DNA from: a virus
Virus record (IMG/VR): IMGVR_UViG_3300032315_000422
Location: 1-28,128 of that record
DNA: 28,128 nt
Reading direction: 5' to 3' (one strand)
Positions within the stretch are counted from its first letter, which is position 1, and every line of letters starts with the position of its first letter. Below are positions 11,373 through 19,749 of this stretch, piece by piece. A program made the translations under genes and the position numbers. Under the pieces are notes generated by a model. It was given only the letters and a program-made list of their open reading frames with translations, made no database searches and was not told the origin of the DNA.

Positions 11373-13387
11373 GCGTAACGCTATACATAGGCAATACCCC
11401 TGCCGACCTTGCCCGTGAAACGGTTATTGCATTAACCTTGCAGGTGCATGACCTTACCAACTTAGAAAGTAGGGATGGTAATTACAGCAACTCTATTAAG
11501 CTACCGTTAACCTCACTCAATAAAGGGCTATTAGGCTTTGCCAATGATGTTAATTCCTATTCGGATATTCCTTATACAAGGATTGCAGCCCAGTTGCACG
11601 TTAACGGGATTGTTCAATCGGGCTTTTTGCAGTTAGATGGTGTTGATGGTGATTTTGCCAATGTGGTATTCTTTAGCGGCAATAGTGGCTTTTTTGAAGC
11701 GATGGGCGATAAGAAACTTAACGACCTTGACCTATCCGACTTTGACAGCTATTGGAATATAGTAGGTACAACACCTAATACCTTTAGCACAAAGAACAAT
11801 ACATCAGGCGTTGTATGGGGGATTGTAGAGTATGGCACTGATGAGGTTTACCGAACGCTAACCAATGCGCTAATTGTTAACCCTAAGACGTTACGCCCTT
11901 GCTTGTATGTTCACTCTATTATGCAAAAGATTTTAGAGTTGACGGGCTTTGAAATGCAGGGTGATTTTTTAACCGATAACCGTTACCTAACAGAGATAGT
12001 TCCTATTGTAACAAATGAGCCTAAACATTCCGATGCATGGAACGCAGACCAAGTATTTGAAGCCCGTAAGATTGGCAGCAGTCAAACAATAACATCGGGA
12101 ACAACGGCTAAAATTACATTTGCAACAGAGGTTACAGACCCCGATAATAACTATGCTAACCCTGATTACACCGTACCTGCATCGGGTAAGTATACAATAT
12201 CGGTTACCTATTTAGTTACCGGCGTTAATATTATAGTACCCGATTACCCAACTATAAGATTAATAGCTGAAGACACACAAGGCAACAGGACTGAATTGTA
12301 CGAATTGTCAATTCAAACAATAATGACTTTGCCCGACTCGTTTACGGTTAAAAATGTTGACTTGTCTCAAAATAGTATTGTTTATGTTGAAGTAACAGCC
12401 GCAACAAACAATGCTGTTTTTAACTCTTCATTATTTGACGGGGTGTTTAAGTGTACTGAAGTAATTGATACAACCATAGGGTACACCAACCTTTTTGAGT
12501 GTACAGGCAATATGCCTGAAATGACCTTAAAAGAGTTTGTTAAGTCATTAGCGCAAAGATACAACCTACTGTTTAAAGCCGATGTTGTTAGTCAGGTTAT
12601 AACCGTACTTACTTACGATGAGGTTTACAATGCTACGCCTTTAGACTGGACTGATAGATTAGACGTAGGGGGTAGAAAGGTAGATTTTCACCCTGCATTT
12701 TTTGGGCAAAACAATCAGTTTAGATGGGCTGATGAAACAAACAATCCCGTAGACTATGCCAATGGTCAACTGCTTATTAGTGATGAGATATTAAGCAAAG
12801 CAATTGTAACAATCCAACAACCATTTGCTGCAAGTTTAGACGTTATAAGGTTTGACAATGTTAGCGTTTCACAAATACCATTGCTTGAATACGATGAGAT
12901 TTCTGTTTCTTCAGGTGATGCCCCGGCTATTGCAGCCGCCAACCAGGTTATAATTTACAACGTAACACCTAATATTCTAAACACTTTAGGTTTTCAAACA
13001 AGTGCCGTTTATAAACTAACGACTGTTAAGCCCAGGTTGTTATATGTAGACCTTACGGTAATGAGTGATGAGTTGGTTTACGATGACGGTACAAATACAG
13101 CGCAAGATGCTAATGCCGAGCCGTTGACTTGGTTTTGGAATGATAGCGCATATAACCTTACATTTGTAGACAATGAAAACGGGCTAATAGATAACTACAT
13201 AAGCCTTGCATTTTCATTTGGTAGGTTTAAAAAGTTGACCGTATTAATGAATTTAACAGCCATAGATGCTTTAACTTTTGCATTTGATAGGACAATAACT
13301 ATTAACCCTTATGGTCGTTTCTACGTTAATAAAATAAACAACTACCAACCTAATCAATTAACCGAAGTAGAATTAATAAAGGTGTAA
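11369..13387 (+). CDS. Large tail protein (baseplate/tail-tip type)
   Basis: A 672-residue protein with a GTG start inside a GTGA overlap. The N-terminus has LYIGNTPADL and, near residue 40, SNSIKLPLTSLNKGLLGF, a pattern I associate with large tail proteins of Bacteroidota phages. The middle contains beta-sandwich-like stretches (about 225-350) and a later segment with LKEFVKSLAQRYNLLFKAD (near 387-405) and IKVL-type strands that recall Tal-like central domains. It most likely forms the tail tip hub. It lies directly upstream of the tape measure, whereas tip genes normally follow the tape measure. Ends on a TAATG junction. Confidence 0.6.
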   Translation: MSVTLYIGNTPADLARETVIALTLQVHDLTNLESRDGNYSNSIKLPLTSLNKGLLGFANDVNSYSDIPYTRIAAQLHVNGIVQSGFLQLDGVDGDFANVVFFSGNSGFFEAMGDKKLNDLDLSDFDSYWNIVGTTPNTFSTKNNTSGVVWGIVEYGTDEVYRTLTNALIVNPKTLRPCLYVHSIMQKILELTGFEMQGDFLTDNRYLTEIVPIVTNEPKHSDAWNADQVFEARKIGSSQTITSGTTAKITFATEVTDPDNNYANPDYTVPASGKYTISVTYLVTGVNIIVPDYPTIRLIAEDTQGNRTELYELSIQTIMTLPDSFTVKNVDLSQNSIVYVEVTAATNNAVFNSSLFDGVFKCTEVIDTTIGYTNLFECTGNMPEMTLKEFVKSLAQRYNLLFKADVVSQVITVLTYDEVYNATPLDWTDRLDVGGRKVDFHPAFFGQNNQFRWADETNNPVDYANGQLLISDEILSKAIVTIQQPFAASLDVIRFDNVSVSQIPLLEYDEISVSSGDAPAIAAANQVIIYNVTPNILNTLGFQTSAVYKLTTVKPRLLYVDLTVMSDELVYDDGTNTAQDANAEPLTWFWNDSAYNLTFVDNENGLIDNYISLAFSFGRFKKLTVLMNLTAIDALTFAFDRTITINPYGRFYVNKINNYQPNQLTEVELIKV

Positions 13388-15882
13388 TGGCAACAACCGA
13401 AAAGATAATAATTGAGATTGACGTACAAAGCAATACGTTAAAAGATACTGAAGACAAGATTAAGAAAGTATCGGGGGCTTTGGTTAAACTTCGGGGTGAT
13501 GAGAAAGCCAACGAAAACCAACTAAGGGCTACCGAAGCTGAATTACGCCTGTTAAATAAAACTTACCGTGAGCAAGACCGTGTACTGCAAGCAAGCATTA
13601 AAGCCAACAATGCGGCAGAGGGTAGTTTAGAGCAATTAAAAGCCCAGTATGTAGTAGCGCAAGCGGCACTTAACAAAATGAGTGCTGAACAACGGGAAAA
13701 CACGCAAGAGGGCAAAGACCAAATTGCAGAGGTAGCCCGTTTAAATGCTGAACTAAAGAGGATTGAAAGCAGCTACGGACAAAATGCACGAAACGTAGGT
13801 AACTATACTGAAGCCGTTAAACCTCTACGACAACAATTGCGTGAACTTACCATGCAATTGCAGCAATTAGAACTACAAGGTCAAGGCAATAGCGAAGAGT
13901 TTAGGAATTTAAGTGCTGAAGCGGGGCGTATTAAAGATACGATGAGCGATGTTAACAATACTGTTAAGGCGTTAGCATCGGACACAAGTTTAATTGACGG
14001 TGTAGCAACTGGCATAAGTGGAATTGCAGGGGCTTTTAGCGCAGCACAAGGGGCGGCAGCTTTGTTTGGTGATGAGAATGAAGACCTGCAAAAGACCTTA
14101 GTGCGAATACAGGCTACTATGGCTATTGCTAATGGGGTGCAACAGGTGGCAAACGCTTTGCAGAAAGATAGTGCCGCTATGGTTGCCTTAAACACAGCAC
14201 GAACACAAGCGGCAACAGCAGCACAGGCAATTTATACAGCCGTAGTTGGTGGCACTACTGGAGTACTTAAAGCATTGCGTATTGCATTAGCGGCAACCGG
14301 CATAGGGCTTGCAATAGTAGCAATAGGTTTTTTAATAGCTAAAATTGTTGAATGGACTGAAAAAACTGATGACCAAGCTAAAAGCGAAGCCGCTTTAAAA
14401 ATGCAACTTGAAGCCAACATAAAGGCTTATGAAGATACTAAAAAACAAATTGAGTTAGTTAATGACCAAAAGGACTTAGCAAATAAAAGAAATATAGAGT
14501 TAGCCAAGTCAACGGGTGCAACTACTGAAGCGGTTACTAAATTAGAATTAAACGCATACAAAGACCAAATAAAAGGACTTGAAGAGTTACGTTTAAGGGC
14601 AGCAGCAGCTTATGTTCAACTTACAGGTTTCCCCGCTAAATATGTTACCGATTTACTTGCAAGCAATCAAAAGATTATTGATGCACAAAAAAACCTACCA
14701 TTTGTAATTGATAAAAATAAAGTTGAACAAGCCCAAAAGTTATTAGCTGATGTAATTGATATTAATAATAGTATAGCTGATGCACAAACTAAAATTATAA
14801 CAGGAAGCAATGAGAAAGTAATAAAAGCACAAGAAGAGTTTAAAAAGAAAACACTTGATGCTTTATCAGCCCTTAACACTTTAGAAAATAGAATATTTTC
14901 AGACAATATTGAGTACAAACTTAATCAATTAGCAGAGGGGTACGAAAAGGAACAGTTAATAATTGATAATGCGTATAGCTTAGGGCTTATTAAAGAAGCT
15001 AAATACAACGCTGATAAACTTGCTTTAACAAATGATTATTTTGCAAAAGTAAAAGATTTAATAAGCCAACAGTTTAACTTTGAGCAAACAGTAAGAGATA
15101 CCCAATTAGTTGCAATTGATACTTTTAATCAACAAGTAACTGATAGCATACTTAAACGTGATGAGGATTTAAAAAAACAAACCGATGCCCGTATTGCATA
15201 TGACACCCAAGCAAGCACAGAGTTTTTAGCAAAGCAAGAAGAAGAAAAAGATAAATTAGTTGCTATTTATGTTCAAGCCTCCGATGCTATTAACCTTGCT
15301 TTTACTAACAGCTTAACAGCAGCCGGTATAGACTTAAAGAAATTTCAAAAGCAATTTATATCTATTATTATAGATACAATAGAAAAAACATTATTACTTC
15401 GTTATGCAGAGGTAATACTTTCATCTACTGCACAACTTGGACCTATTGCTGGTCCTATTGCGGGGGCTGCTGCTATTGGTAGTATTAAGGCTTTATTTGC
15501 AATAGCAAAATCGGTTGTTGCACAATTTGAAGATGGCGGCATAATACCTAAAGCGGCTGATGGTATGTTAGTAGGCAACCGCCACGCACAAGGTGGAATT
15601 AAAATAGGTACACCAAGCGGAATGATAGAAGCGGAGGGTGGAGAGGTTATTATTAATCGTAAGTCTGTTAGTATGTATAAACCATTGTTAAGCGCAATAA
15701 ACGAAGCGGGGGGAGGTGTTAAGTTTGCTGATGGTGGACAAATATACACACCGCCTGTTAGCCAAGAATTTAATATCTTAGCCGATATGTTTAAAACAAT
15801 GCCGCAACCAGTAGTATCAGTAGTTGATATTATTGATGTAACTCAAAAAGTAGGCAGGGTAAAAGCAACCGCAACGCTATGA
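13387..15882 (+). CDS. Tail tape measure protein
   Basis: An 831-residue protein with the expected layout. Residues 1-200 are long coiled coil rich in K, E, Q and A. A hydrophobic helix at about 295-322 (ALAATGIGLAIVAIGFLIAK) is the membrane-active segment. More coiled coil follows (about 340-600), then a glycine-rich C-terminal region with ADGG/EGGEVIINRKS repeats (about 715-800), typical of tape measure ends. It sets tail length and is ejected with DNA. At roughly 0.15 nm per residue it predicts a tail near 125 nm, an estimate from the general rule. It overlaps the next gene by 4 bases. Confidence 0.9.
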   Translation: MATTEKIIIEIDVQSNTLKDTEDKIKKVSGALVKLRGDEKANENQLRATEAELRLLNKTYREQDRVLQASIKANNAAEGSLEQLKAQYVVAQAALNKMSAEQRENTQEGKDQIAEVARLNAELKRIESSYGQNARNVGNYTEAVKPLRQQLRELTMQLQQLELQGQGNSEEFRNLSAEAGRIKDTMSDVNNTVKALASDTSLIDGVATGISGIAGAFSAAQGAAALFGDENEDLQKTLVRIQATMAIANGVQQVANALQKDSAAMVALNTARTQAATAAQAIYTAVVGGTTGVLKALRIALAATGIGLAIVAIGFLIAKIVEWTEKTDDQAKSEAALKMQLEANIKAYEDTKKQIELVNDQKDLANKRNIELAKSTGATTEAVTKLELNAYKDQIKGLEELRLRAAAAYVQLTGFPAKYVTDLLASNQKIIDAQKNLPFVIDKNKVEQAQKLLADVIDINNSIADAQTKIITGSNEKVIKAQEEFKKKTLDALSALNTLENRIFSDNIEYKLNQLAEGYEKEQLIIDNAYSLGLIKEAKYNADKLALTNDYFAKVKDLISQQFNFEQTVRDTQLVAIDTFNQQVTDSILKRDEDLKKQTDARIAYDTQASTEFLAKQEEEKDKLVAIYVQASDAINLAFTNSLTAAGIDLKKFQKQFISIIIDTIEKTLLLRYAEVILSSTAQLGPIAGPIAGAAAIGSIKALFAIAKSVVAQFEDGGIIPKAADGMLVGNRHAQGGIKIGTPSGMIEAEGGEVIINRKSVSMYKPLLSAINEAGGGVKFADGGQIYTPPVSQEFNILADMFKTMPQPVVSVVDIIDVTQKVGRVKATATL

Positions 15883-16109
15883 GGTTAGGCGATTTGATAA
15901 ACGAAAACCAAGAGTTAATGGATAAACTTGTTAAGTCAGGGGCTATGTCGTTCCTTGTTATTCAGCAATCAAAAATGTATGCAGAGGTAAAACAAGAAAT
16001 GTGTAAGCCATGCACAATTACAACAGCAGTCAATAATGTAGCTACCAACCACGATGTAAACGATACAACCGTTTGGAGGGCTGTTAAAAAAATGGGGCAA
16101 GAATGTTAG
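15879..16109 (+). CDS. Small helix-turn-helix protein at the head of the glycan cluster
   Basis: A 76-residue protein. The N-terminal half is a helical stretch (LINENQELMDKLVKSGAMSF); the C-terminal half, TTAVNNVATNHDVNDTTVWR (about 49-68) followed by AVKKM, has the spacing of a helix-turn-helix, with the TVWRAVKKM recognition-helix look. It overlaps the tape measure by 4 bases and the first glycosyltransferase of the cluster by 7, so it is co-translated with both. It may be a local regulator of the glycan genes, or a small virion-assembly protein whose HTH-like pattern is accidental. Confidence 0.5.
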   Translation: MRLGDLINENQELMDKLVKSGAMSFLVIQQSKMYAEVKQEMCKPCTITTAVNNVATNHDVNDTTVWRAVKKMGQEC

Positions 16110-16726
16110 CTGTTGTAATTCCAACCAGGGGAGATAGGGGCGAGTTCTTAGATTTTGCACTTAAACAAATCTTAATGCAAACAAAGCAACCCGACATAAT
16201 TGAAATTGTTGATTATCCTCCACGTTCCCACGATAAAGACATAACAGAACGATACAAATACGGAATACGGAACGCTGTTAAAAAAGGTGCTGAATGTATT
16301 ATCTTTTGGGAAGATGATGATTACTACCAACCCGATTACATAGCTTATATGTATGCTGAATGGGTGCAACACGGCAAGCCCGACCTACTGGGTATTGACT
16401 ATACTTACTATTATCACTTAAGGGCAAAAGGAGTACATTTTCAATCCCACGAAAAAAGGGCAAGTATGTTTTGCACAATGGTAAGCAAAAATTGTATAGA
16501 CTATCCTATGCCGGCAAACAACTATGCTTTTGCTGATTTGTTTATTTGGAGTAAATGGAAAGGCGTAACGGTGCGACCTGAAAGAATAATGGCAATAGGT
16601 ATTAAACACGGAGTAGGTATGTCGGGTGGGAGTGGACATACCCGCACTAACATTTACACCCCTGATACTAATTTTTTGAAAGAACATTGCACACCTGAAG
16701 CCTATGAATTTTACCAATCAATCTGA
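16103..16726 (+). CDS. GT2-family glycosyltransferase
   Basis: A 207-residue GT-A fold enzyme: LAVVIPTRGDRGEFLDFAL at the N-terminus gives the first nucleotide-binding strand and helix, and IIFWEDDDYYQPDYI (66-80) carries the DxD metal/sugar-nucleotide site. The C-terminal GIKHGVGMSGGSGH (near 172-185) supplies the histidine-glycine loop that often closes the donor pocket in phage GT2 enzymes. No membrane anchor. It overlaps the HTH gene by 7 bases and the next glycosyltransferase by 23. It should transfer a sugar in the cytoplasm, presumably working with the next three or four genes on one glycan. Donor and acceptor cannot be read from sequence. Confidence 0.8.
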   Translation: MLAVVIPTRGDRGEFLDFALKQILMQTKQPDIIEIVDYPPRSHDKDITERYKYGIRNAVKKGAECIIFWEDDDYYQPDYIAYMYAEWVQHGKPDLLGIDYTYYYHLRAKGVHFQSHEKRASMFCTMVSKNCIDYPMPANNYAFADLFIWSKWKGVTVRPERIMAIGIKHGVGMSGGSGHTRTNIYTPDTNFLKEHCTPEAYEFYQSI

Positions 16727-18023
16727 TGTTACAGTAGTGCTAACATCATGCAATAGACCTACCTTGTTAGCCGAAACACTAAAAAGTTTTGATGAGTTTA
16801 ATACATACCCTTTGCACTCGTTTATTATTATTGACGATAGTGGGGTAAAAGGCTGCAATGATAAATTAAAGGAGTTGTACCCGTTTATTACTTGGGTAGA
16901 AAACGATACTAACAAAGGGCAACCGTTTTCAATTGATACAGCCTATGCGCTTGTAACAACACCTTATATTTTTCATTGTGAAGAGGATTGGCAGTTTTAC
17001 AAATCGGGCTTTATTGAGCAATCAAAGGTTATTTTAGAAAACAACCCTAATATTTTGCAAGTTTGGATAAGGGCTGAAAATGACACAAACGGTCATCCAT
17101 TGTTACCAAAAATCTATAATTGTAAGGGTGTACAATACAAACATCCAACAACTAAACATTTGGGAATATGGAACGGGTTTAGTTTTAACCCTGGGCTAAG
17201 AAGATTAAAAGAATACAAGCTGTTAGGCTCGTTTAGTCAATATGCACAAAACGGGGAACACGGGGCAACTGTTGAAGCCAATGTAGGGATGTTTTACAAA
17301 AACAAAGGTTTTGTTTCAGCAATCATTACCGGCAATGGTTTTGTAAGGCATTTAGGAGATTTTAACAACGTGCCAAGAAATTTAAGAGAGCAAAAACAAC
17401 ACGCATCTTTTATTATTCCGTACCGTGATAGGCAAGCGCACCTAAATATATTTATTCCAACCTTAACACGCTATTTACAAAAACAAGGCTTTAGAAAATA
17501 CCATATTTATGTGGTTGAGCAAGCGGACAAAAAGCCATTTAACAGGGCTAAACTTTTAAATATCGGGGCTGATGTATCAAAAGAACAATGCGCTTACTAT
17601 ATATTCCACGATGTTGATATGCGCCCGGCTGATGTTGACTATCGCTATTCTTTAAACCCGTGCCACATAGCAACAAAGTGTAGTCAGTTTAGATATAAAA
17701 TGCCATACCCTGATTATTTTGGGGGTGTTACCATATTTGACAAAGAGGTGTTCTATTCAATCAACGGTTACTCAAATAATTTTTGGGGGTGGGGTGGTGA
17801 AGATGACGAGAGCCTAAACAGGGTAAAAGCAAAAGCACTTATTGTTGATAGGCGGCAATGTGTTTTTGAATGTGCAGAACACAAAAGAGATTACTCACAC
17901 GCTGCAACAAACGCTGAAAAGGTCAATACTATTGATGCTAATGATGGTCTTTCTAACTTAGAATATAAAGAATTATCACGGTCAACAAAAGCAAACGTAA
18001 CCCATATAAAAGTATTATTATGA
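16704..18023 (+). CDS. Two-domain glycosyltransferase: GT2-like plus GT7 beta-1,4-galactosyltransferase-like
   Basis: A 439-residue fusion. Domain 1 (about 1-225) is GT2-like: TVVLTSCNRPTLLAETLKSF (10-29), IIIDDS (41-46), NKGQPFSIDTA (70-80) and the acidic FHCEEDW (90-96). Domain 2 (about 234-439) carries the motifs of GT7 enzymes (beta-1,4-galactosyltransferases): FIIPYRDR (236-243), FNRAKLLNIG (279-288), metal-binding DVD (303-305), YFGG (338-341), WGWGGEDDE (361-369), His393 and DGLSNLEY (414-421). The Tyr of YFGG and the second Trp of WGWGG are 26 positions apart inclusive, as in animal enzyme B4GALT1 (Tyr289 to Trp314). That Tyr favours UDP-galactose over UDP-GalNAc in animal enzymes. 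The Met metal ligand (three before the His) is Cys390 here. The acceptor is unknown. It overlaps both neighbours. Confidence 0.8.
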   Translation: MNFTNQSDVTVVLTSCNRPTLLAETLKSFDEFNTYPLHSFIIIDDSGVKGCNDKLKELYPFITWVENDTNKGQPFSIDTAYALVTTPYIFHCEEDWQFYKSGFIEQSKVILENNPNILQVWIRAENDTNGHPLLPKIYNCKGVQYKHPTTKHLGIWNGFSFNPGLRRLKEYKLLGSFSQYAQNGEHGATVEANVGMFYKNKGFVSAIITGNGFVRHLGDFNNVPRNLREQKQHASFIIPYRDRQAHLNIFIPTLTRYLQKQGFRKYHIYVVEQADKKPFNRAKLLNIGADVSKEQCAYYIFHDVDMRPADVDYRYSLNPCHIATKCSQFRYKMPYPDYFGGVTIFDKEVFYSINGYSNNFWGWGGEDDESLNRVKAKALIVDRRQCVFECAEHKRDYSHAATNAEKVNTIDANDGLSNLEYKELSRSTKANVTHIKVLL

Positions 18024-18709
18024 AATTAGCTGTTTATACAAGAAGCAACAACCATGTATTGTGGGAACGTATGTGTGAGTTTATTCCGCAAGATGTAATA
18101 AAATATAGGTGTACTGGGTTTCATGGTTTTGAAGCGGCTGTTGACTACCTGTATTATATGTTTGAACACGCTGTTGAAAACAAGGTTAACTACATAATAA
18201 ACATTGATGAAGATTGCTTTATTACCGATTGGAATGTTGTGCTAAACTTGTTAAAGTATACAAAAGACAATTCATTCACTCACGTTGGTATGCCCGATGG
18301 TTGTGTTCACCCTGGGCGGTCAAATAGTTGGGCGGTACACAATCCATTCTTTAATGTTTTTAATGTTGTGGCTTGCTCTTTATTAGTACGGTCAAAGTCT
18401 AAAGAGTTTATTAATTCTTTTACCTTTGACGGAATAAAAAAGGCAACACGCCCAAAAGAAAGGGGGACTTTTCAGCATAATAACGATGAGCCGTTTGCAG
18501 GGCTGTTTTATTATTTGCACGCTAAAGGCAAACCATTAAATTTATCGGCTTATATTTGGGCTGATGGTATTACTACGGAATTGCTATTTAAGGGTAGCCC
18601 TTTTTGCGTTCATACTTGGTATAGCCGTGAGTATGGTTTTGATGAGAATGTTACTAACAGAATAGACACTATATATGAAAATTGCAAAAACAGGGTATTG
18701 GTCGGGTAA
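18020..18709 (+). CDS. GT-A-like glycosyltransferase
   Basis: A 229-residue protein beginning MKLAVYTRSNNHVLWERM, like the first strand-helix unit of GT-A enzymes. YIINIDEDCFITDW (58-71) holds an acidic DED in the DxD position after a hydrophobic strand. The later sections (VGMPDGC, HNNDEPFAGLFYY, CVHTWYSREYG) provide acidic and histidine residues suited to acceptor and metal binding. I do not recognise the exact family. ATGA overlap with the GT7 fusion and a 35-base overlap with the methyltransferase gene place it within one co-translated glycan module. The general class is likely; donor sugar unknown. Confidence 0.65.
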   Translation: MKLAVYTRSNNHVLWERMCEFIPQDVIKYRCTGFHGFEAAVDYLYYMFEHAVENKVNYIINIDEDCFITDWNVVLNLLKYTKDNSFTHVGMPDGCVHPGRSNSWAVHNPFFNVFNVVACSLLVRSKSKEFINSFTFDGIKKATRPKERGTFQHNNDEPFAGLFYYLHAKGKPLNLSAYIWADGITTELLFKGSPFCVHTWYSREYGFDENVTNRIDTIYENCKNRVLVG

Positions 18710-19253
18710 TGATACCGATAAACACCACGCTTTTGATGAGTCATTAGCTAATGAATTAGGTAATTTATTTAAAGGCAATTTAGTTATTGACTTAGGCTGC
18801 GGGGAAGGTAAGTATGTCTATGCTTTAAGACACCAAAAAGATACATTGGCTTATGGAATAGACGGCAACCCTAATACCGCAAGAAATAACCCGTATTGCG
18901 TTGTGCGTGATTTAACAGAACCTTTGCCGCAATCAAAAATTGACTTTGACAAATCGGTTGAAAGTTCATATAATGGTCTATGTGTTTTATCTTTAGAAGT
19001 CGGAGAACATATACCAAAAGAATTATGTAATGCCTTTATAAACAATATTAAGGTTTACGAGCCTAAAACAATTGTTATCAGTTGGGCTATCCCCGGTCAA
19101 GGTGGAGATGGACACGTTAACGAATTACCAAACGAAAAGGTAATAAAGATGTTTAGCGAGTACACATACGATGCTGCAACAAGCCAAAAGCTAAGAGATG
19201 CTGCAAGCCTTTGGTGGTTTAAGAATACTATTATGGTGTTTAGAAAAGTTTAG
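18675..19253 (+). CDS. Class I SAM-dependent methyltransferase
   Basis: A 192-residue Rossmann methyltransferase. Motif I is LVIDLGCGEGKY (36-47), the acidic residue ending strand 2 is in GIDGN (61-65), and the motif IV-like strand is CVLSLEVGEHI (103-113). The N-terminal TGYWSGND...HHAFD element matches small methyltransferases found beside sugar-modifying genes in phages. It has no DNA-target (DPPY-type) motif, so it more likely methylates a sugar or small metabolite than DNA. It overlaps the preceding glycosyltransferase by 35 bases, and its 3' end overlaps the minus-strand gene by 14. A cap-methylation role on the glycan is inferred from context. Confidence 0.75.
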   Translation: MKIAKTGYWSGNDTDKHHAFDESLANELGNLFKGNLVIDLGCGEGKYVYALRHQKDTLAYGIDGNPNTARNNPYCVVRDLTEPLPQSKIDFDKSVESSYNGLCVLSLEVGEHIPKELCNAFINNIKVYEPKTIVISWAIPGQGGDGHVNELPNEKVIKMFSEYTYDAATSQKLRDAASLWWFKNTIMVFRKV

Positions 19254-19749
19254 CCAAGCCACAATACAGATTAATTGTTACGCCCTTTTGCTTTAAATAC
19301 AAAAACAGTTGAAAAAGGTGTTTGACGGTGCTATTTAATTTATTCTTTTCTCCTAATACTGGGTGGTTAACAAGGTCGCATCCGTATATATTTATTTCAG
19401 TTGCCCCGTATATGTTATACGCTAAAGTTATTGCTGCATAAACGGAAGTAAACCCAAAAACAACCGTATTCTTTTTACCCATATTTTTAAGGCTATGAGT
19501 TCCGCCAATTTGGTATTCTTTAAAGCCTGGTTGGAACGGTTTAAACTCTAATCTATGCGACCAAAATTCCTTTGGTTGGTAACTGCATAGTGTTTTTTTT
19601 CTTTTTCCTTTAAACCTATAAAGGTTATCAACGCATATTACCACATCGGCAGGGTAGTAAGCTCCTATGTCATTTACACCAATAGTTAAATTGCCAGTTG
19701 GCTTGTATTCCTTTAGACTTTCTCCAAGCCCTAATATATCTACTTGCAT
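19240..19749 (-). CDS. Sialyltransferase/DUF115-like Rossmann protein
   Basis: A 169-residue protein and the only convincing minus-strand gene. It opens VDILGLGESLKEY, the glycine-rich loop pattern seen at the N-terminus of CstII-type sialyltransferases (GT42) and DUF115/MptE-like proteins. ADVVICVDN follows (about 34-42), and near 100-126 it has TSVYAAITLAYNIYGATEIN and YGCDL. This TSxxAxxxA...GAxEIxxxGxD arrangement is the second nucleotide-binding half of those families. It is short, so perhaps a minimal catalytic domain. It has its own upstream divergent promoter, unlike the neighbouring plus-strand operon, and converges on the methyltransferase with a 14-base overlap. A late-acquired accessory gene is likely. 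Donor specificity is not established. Confidence 0.65.
   Translation of the reverse strand: MQVDILGLGESLKEYKPTGNLTIGVNDIGAYYPADVVICVDNLYRFKGKRKKTLCSYQPKEFWSHRLEFKPFQPGFKEYQIGGTHSLKNMGKKNTVVFGFTSVYAAITLAYNIYGATEINIYGCDLVNHPVLGEKNKLNSTVKHLFQLFLYLKQKGVTINLYCGLAKLF

Follow-up and report, generated by a model that had tools for sequence, protein, structure and literature searches.

What does a tailed phage do with a single protein that joins two glycosyltransferase domains, the second resembling the animal β-1,4-galactosyltransferases, and that is encoded among its structural genes? The window, by which we mean the whole stretch of DNA analysed, comprises 28,128 nt from an uncultured tailed phage (IMG/VR record IMGVR_UViG_3300032315_000422, positions 1 to 28,128). 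A sequence-only reading had proposed that the gene at 16704-18023 fuses a GT2-like domain to a GT7 domain, in that order, in a phage structural setting. Profiles, structure prediction and relatives bore out the fusion, and the neighbouring structural genes in the window bore out the setting.

A phage protein with GT2 and GT7 domains

The gene overlaps with both of its neighbours, 16103-16726 on the 5' side and 18020-18709 on the 3' side, which fits a single operon. Its features are the following:

16704..18023, + strand: GT2::GT7 predicted bifunctional glycosyltransferase; 439 aa, single open frame with an ATG start
16704..17357, + strand: GT2 domain, residues 1-218, defined by Pfam PF00535, GT-A fold matches and conservation
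17358..17396, + strand: linker, residues 219-231, pLDDT <50
17397..18020, + strand: GT7 (beta-4-galactosyltransferase-like) domain, residues 232-439, defined by PF13733 and PF02709, B4GALT1 and 1tvy
17610..17618, + strand: DVD motif; D303 and D305 correspond to D252 and D254 of bovine B4GALT1
17715..17726, + strand: YFGG; Tyr338 is the donor-selecting position, Tyr289 in B4GALT1
17784..17810, + strand: WGWGGEDDE; Trp363, Glu366 and Asp367 correspond to W314, E317 and D318 of B4GALT1
17871..17882, + strand: metal-site region CAEH; Cys390 is at the M344 position and His393 corresponds to H347

All of the GT7 hallmark motifs quoted in the sequence-only reading were located in the 439-aa protein: FIIPYRDR (residues 236-243), FNRAKLLNIG (279-288), DVD (303-305), YFGG (338-341), WGWGGEDDE (361-369), C390, H393 and DGLSNLEY (414-421). 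The B4GALT1-like spacing that it described between the donor tyrosine and the tryptophan also holds, with Tyr338 and Trp363 lying 25 residues apart (26 inclusive) and ungapped relative to B4GALT1.

When the protein was compared with Pfam profiles, as that reading had advised, GT7N, GT7C and GT2 all scored over their curated cut-offs. In the C-terminal half, GT7C (PF02709, which pairs with GT7N, PF13733) matched with an E-value of 6.4e-23 and 80.6 bits against a cut-off of 23, and GT7N with an E-value of 1.4e-21 and 77 bits against a cut-off of 27; the presence of both domains places the protein in CAZy family GT7. The N-terminal half matched GT2 PF00535 with an E-value of 1.4e-8 (35.3 bits; cut-off 23.3) and belongs to GT2 by this score together with a conserved Asp (D45), ExD (E93/D95) and Glu base (E191), present in 36 of 36 aligned rows. 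The best match among solved structures in a phmmer search was bovine B4GALT1 (E 1e-36, residues 234-422, ~36% identity), and a 36-row profile matched human B4GALT1 with an E-value of 1.2e-68. Judged by sequence, the GT7 and GT2 matches are all far beyond chance.

The structure of the 439-aa protein was predicted by AlphaFold2 from a 36-row alignment (A5); an earlier mixed alignment of GT2-only and GT7-only rows (A3), which put GT7 N-termini on the GT2 half, was left out of folding. The model (mean pLDDT 87, pTM 0.58) consists of two confident GT-A domains joined by a floppy linker, residues 219-231, and because the pLDDT of this linker is below 50 and the pTM is 0.58, the relative orientation of the domains is unsure. 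The GT7 half superimposed on bovine B4GALT1 in complex with UDP-Gal and Mn (1tvy) with a Z-score of 29.7 and 1.9 Å over 213 residues, which puts its DxD and (E)DD motifs, gap-free in the sequence alignment with B4GALT1, in the predicted donor pocket; the next structural match was human B4GALT7 (Z 28.1). The sequence-only reading had tied its case to a GT7 profile match and to the meeting of these residues in one pocket; the profile match was found, and the superposition on donor-bound B4GALT1 speaks against residues that lie apart. The GT2 half matched ordinary GT-A enzymes with Z-scores of ~17 (Leptospira glycosyltransferase 6p61, GalNAc-T2 and cellulose synthase).

In the predicted model two GT-A domains thus lie on a single chain, as in the GAG polymerases K4CP and CHSY, and Foldseek matches to the whole model included the two-domain K4 chondroitin polymerase (E 4e-15), heparosan synthase 2 and COLGALT1. 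On these grounds the fusion could polymerise two sugars in alternation, as K4 chondroitin polymerase and CHSY3 do, the more so as CHSY1/3 likewise pair a GT31 with a GT7 domain (PMC12748766). We nevertheless give this reading little credence. K4CP aligned over both domains (365 residues) only at an rmsd of 13 Å, so that a common two-domain arrangement is unsupported, though the model's own domain orientation is unsure; the modelled linker has little order, GT2 and GT7 are encoded by separate genes in other phages (see below), and no export system was seen.

Conservation of the two catalytic sites

Conservation was counted over 36 GT2 rows and 36 GT7 rows, the window's own GT7 row included. Among the GT2 rows, D45, E93, D95 and W96 (EEDW), E191 and H216 are identical throughout. 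Among the GT7 rows, D303, D305, W363 and D367 are invariant, E366 is kept in 35 and H393 in 34, and the Tyr338 position is occupied by Tyr in 29. Tyr289 of B4GALT1 selects the sugar donor, and Tyr338, taken alone, suggests UDP-Gal as the donor of the phage enzyme. Between near relatives, dN/dS was 0.04-0.13 in each half. These low values and the near-invariant catalytic residues indicate that both active sites are under purifying selection, and both halves appear to have been kept active.

The metal ligands of GT7 enzymes are the Asp of DxD, a His, and a Met or His three residues before it. The Asp and His are conserved here, and the third position is Cys in the window's protein and Ser in most phage members. 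The Cys that the sequence-only reading had pointed out in place of the Met is indeed present (Cys390), but it is no oddity: the Met344 position, three before the conserved His, holds Ser in 24 and Cys in 6 of the 36 GT7 rows. Cys390 was therefore ruled out as a special feature of this protein, and it is a family trait.

This metal site, with Cys or Ser where B4GALT1 has Met, is one of two points that speak for a dead, non-catalytic half that only binds a glycan or a partner; the other is that non-catalytic partners such as CHPF accompany GT7/GT31 enzymes (PMC12748766). Such a half is nevertheless very unlikely in view of the residues found in all 36 rows of each domain (including Trp363 and Asp367 in GT7) and of the low dN/dS in both halves.

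Relatives of the fusion and a recurring gene cassette

A search for proteins with the same domain order, also advised by the sequence-only reading, found the two-domain protein in seven other IMG/VR contigs, at 93-95% identity in three, 58% in two, and 57% and 53% in the remaining ones. Because seven further contigs encode the fusion, an assembly artefact is excluded. In L001-L005 the gene order of the window is kept as far as each contig reaches; L006 and L007 are otherwise different phages, in which the fusion, a gene for a 229-aa protein and a methyltransferase gene follow in the same order as in the window. A tblastn search of 50,697 deposited phage records with the 439-aa protein gave no match at 1e-5 and, with E allowed to reach 1, three partial matches, all weak. 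The fusion was also absent from scans, of limited sensitivity, of 84,980 species genomes, in which only stand-alone GT2 or GT7 relatives were seen, and of 395 Bacteroidia genomes. GT7 relatives as such are encoded by 223 IMG/VR stretches (confirmed candidates), and GT7-like proteins also occur in giant viruses, some inside long multi-domain chains. The architecture had been called unusual for a phage; this stands for the GT2-GT7 fusion, which is rare, but not for GT7 itself.

Two other GT7 groups were seen in these searches. L097 and L098, from SAR86 genomes, are GT7-type genes distantly related to those of the phages. L152:7771-12852 carries three adjacent GT7-domain genes of ~490 aa each, all fused to a laminin-G-like (ConA-type) domain; similar triple runs occur in L108, L113, L135-L137, L140, L141, L143, L145-L147, L149, L150, L153-L156, L160, L161, L163, L167-L169 and L172, mostly on large uncultured phage contigs, and form a separate, possibly more unusual GT7 architecture.

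We searched for the neighbouring genes as a set with four profiles, one for each half of the fusion (GT2 and GT7), one for the 229-aa protein and one for the methyltransferase. GT2 and GT7 were found as separate nearby genes in 13 further contigs (~nine distinct groups), of which 12 also have the 229-aa gene and five the methyltransferase gene (L009, L010, L011, L013 and L014). The order is GT2 - methyltransferase - 229 aa - GT7 in L010, GT2 - 229 aa - GT7 in L044 and L047, and GT2 - methyltransferase - GT7 in L009. Since GT2 and GT7 are separate neighbours in about nine other phage groups, the fusion unites genes that belong to a travelling cassette. The fusions all fall in one clade (96/93) of the GT2 tree, and this clade adjoins the cassette GT2s from separate-gene phages; in the GT7 tree L006 branches openly with the unfused L104/L106/L107, a pattern that is compatible with a single fusion origin but does not resolve it. 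The simplest reading of these sequences would be that two cassette genes were joined once (a 'Rosetta stone' case). Such a joining argues that the GT2 and GT7 enzymes act in one pathway, and the fusion indicates that they probably act together. Elsewhere, proteins related to the GT2 half are joined to different transferase domains, to Galactosyl_T in L015:9167-10714 and to a GT92/GT2-type domain in L026:7621-9024, which makes this GT2 domain a repeated fusion partner.

In the window, the genes adjoining the fusion are the following:

16103..16726, + strand: probable GT2-type glycosyltransferase, 207 aa (EDDDYY); PF00535 E 0.0014, below cut-off, and phrog_14775 glycosyltransferase 0.0019
18020..18709, + strand: 229-aa protein, predicted third GT-A glycosyltransferase, GT31-like; AlphaFold fold, travels with the GT2 and GT7 genes
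18675..19253, + strand: class I SAM methyltransferase, 192 aa; matched by MetW (Pfam, 6.8e-5) and by further methyltransferase models

The 229-aa protein had no Pfam match and no match at 0.01 in the 50,697 deposited phage records, and its family profile had none among solved structures. Its AlphaFold model (pLDDT 91.6, pTM 0.90) has a GT-A glycosyltransferase fold, with CHSY3-CHPF as the top neighbour (Z 13.4), followed by C1GalT1 and B3GalT5 (12.4), B3GalT6 (11.9) and a PBCV-1 capsid glycosyltransferase (11.9). Within the family a DxD (D63, D65) is conserved and His198 is invariant. We predict from the fold alone that the protein is GT31-like, the Z gaps among several families being ~1. Homologues of the methyltransferase adjoin GT2/GT7 genes in several unrelated phages, and the 16103-16726 gene is limited to the window's own lineage (L001, L003, L004 and L005). 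The window encodes at least three predicted glycosyltransferase domains within 3.2 kb, probably four counting that of 16103-16726, plus one methyltransferase.

Amid this + strand operon lies an antisense open reading frame (19240-19749, - strand, 169 aa) that is 81-98% conserved in four relatives. A profile search of solved structures with it was negative; by eye, it may resemble sialyltransferase- or Maf-like proteins.

A candidate virion glycan and its known counterparts

The window also encodes a large terminase, tape measure, head protease, major head protein, portal and tail assembly chaperone, and the cassette is flanked by the genes for the tape measure and the protease. In L007, L009, L010 and L044, too, the cassette has terminase, tail, baseplate or portal genes in its vicinity. 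The window's capsid protein has relatives of 49-53% identity in 4 of 395 Bacteroidia genomes, at least three of which share the order protease, capsid, portal with the window; these relatives and this order point to a probable host among the Bacteroidota. The cassette was absent from the related Bacteroidia prophage stretches that were read.

In two Bacteroidia prophages that share this head module, the position upstream of the head protease is taken by a distant, different GT2 gene (L177:11299-11955 and L179:11231-11887). The tape measure gene (13387-15882) has conserved ends and a strongly divergent middle relative to L001, most neighbouring genes being 95-100% identical.

We lean towards a cytosolic assembly line in which the GT2, GT7, GT31-like and methyltransferase enzymes of the cassette would build a short, possibly methylated glycan, most likely on a virion protein. 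The 439-aa gene product would be a soluble two-headed glycosyltransferase, whose N-terminal GT2 domain would add one sugar to an acceptor and whose GT7 domain, of the inverting, metal-dependent B4GALT type, would attach the next, most likely galactose taken from UDP-Gal, in beta-1,4 linkage. The GT31-like transferase (18020-18709) and the SAM methyltransferase (18675-19253) of the same operon would work with the fusion, and the product, a short and possibly methyl-capped glycan, would be made in the host cytosol late in infection on what is most likely a tail or head protein. We infer the activity, donor, linkage, order of addition, glycan methylation and virion target. A location among late genes does not prove modification of the virion, the methyltransferase may act elsewhere, and since the viral records are possibly incomplete, genes acting elsewhere could be missed. 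Epimerase genes supplying UDP-Gal were not found in 16 records, which are possibly fragments; this fits the use of host UDP-sugars but proves little.

If these enzymes instead altered the surface of the host (its LPS, capsule or O-antigen), for instance to block superinfection, they would have counterparts in the serotype-converting glycosyltransferases known in temperate phages (PMC12619734), and the capsid relatives in Bacteroidia genomes make a link to lysogeny possible. We consider this unlikely, as no cassette protein has a transmembrane-like stretch (19-residue hydropathy peaks at 1.42), the window genes searched included no recognisable flippase or lipid-carrier transferase, the cassette sits in a late structural cluster, and the related prophage stretches that were read lack it.

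Decoration of hydroxymethylated phage DNA with a glycan has precedent in the multi-sugar DNA glycans of phages (Pyle et al. 2024, as cited in PMC12619734), and the window encodes, at 133-2304, a phrog_16-related protein in which a helicase is fused to an N6/N4 DNA methylase domain. The cassette, however, adjoins structural and not replication genes. The 16 cassette-bearing records, possibly fragments, contained no thymidylate-synthase-type gene in a search whose controls worked and no match to Tet/JBP, a weak result given that the control for the latter gave no signal. Glycosylation of DNA is in our estimate quite improbable.

Returning to the virion glycan, we entertain a bolder form of it tentatively and as less likely than not, namely that a mobile, self-contained assembly line gives unrelated tailed phages a virion coat of methylated, beta-1,4-galactosylated, animal-like oligosaccharide, two of its enzymes having been fused in one lineage into a bifunctional synthase. 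Few cases of glycosylated phage particles are known, and the enzymes responsible are poorly sorted; a recurring gene set can now be named. The previously unannotated phage protein at 18020-18709 gains a predicted glycosyltransferase fold, and the small soluble enzyme pair is open to direct assay. Should a beta-1,4-galactosylated glycan be made, the fusion would offer a compact soluble galactosyltransferase and a route to why phages make animal-like sugar bonds.

GT7 domains in viruses are already known, as is the pairing of GT7 with another GT-A domain in animal CHSY (PMC12748766). In the literature searched we found no description of phage GT7 enzymes, of a GT2-GT7 fusion in tailed phages, of the recurring cassette or of a GT-A assignment for the 229-aa protein.

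Glycans decorate the capsid and the tail tube of mycobacteriophages (Freeman et al. 2023, as cited in PMC12619734), whose particles thus resemble those proposed here; on kinship of the enzymes there is only the lack of a good tblastn match in deposited phage records. Chlorovirus PBCV-1 encodes multi-domain glycosyltransferases, A064R and A111/114R, that build its capsid glycan, and in A064R a single chain holds two glycosyltransferase domains together with a methyltransferase (PMC7826918); PBCV-1 is a giant algal virus whose three-domain proteins have proven activities, whereas those of the phage are inferred. The GT7 proteins of giant viruses (a Megaviridae sample, Aureococcus virus and Homavirus) share a GT7-like fold, in some cases within long multi-domain proteins, but belong to eukaryotic viruses, differ in size and arrangement and are 15-27% identical in structural matches. 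E. coli K4CP/KfoC is a bacterial enzyme with two GT-A domains that matches the whole model in Foldseek, at ~12% identity and in another arrangement, so far as the model's unsure orientation allows. CHSY1/CHSY3 (GT31 and GT7) likewise have two GT-A catalytic domains with GT7 C-terminal (PMC12748766), and the 229-aa neighbour is predicted to resemble their GT31 domain; the phage partner of GT7 is GT2 and not GT31, and the phage protein has neither a Golgi anchor nor a middle domain. B4GALT1 and B4GALT7 of CAZy GT7 share both GT7 Pfam domains, the core motifs, the fold and ~36% identity with the phage protein; the latter differs in having no membrane anchor or stem, in its fusion to GT2 and in having Cys (Ser in most phage members) for the metal ligand Met344.
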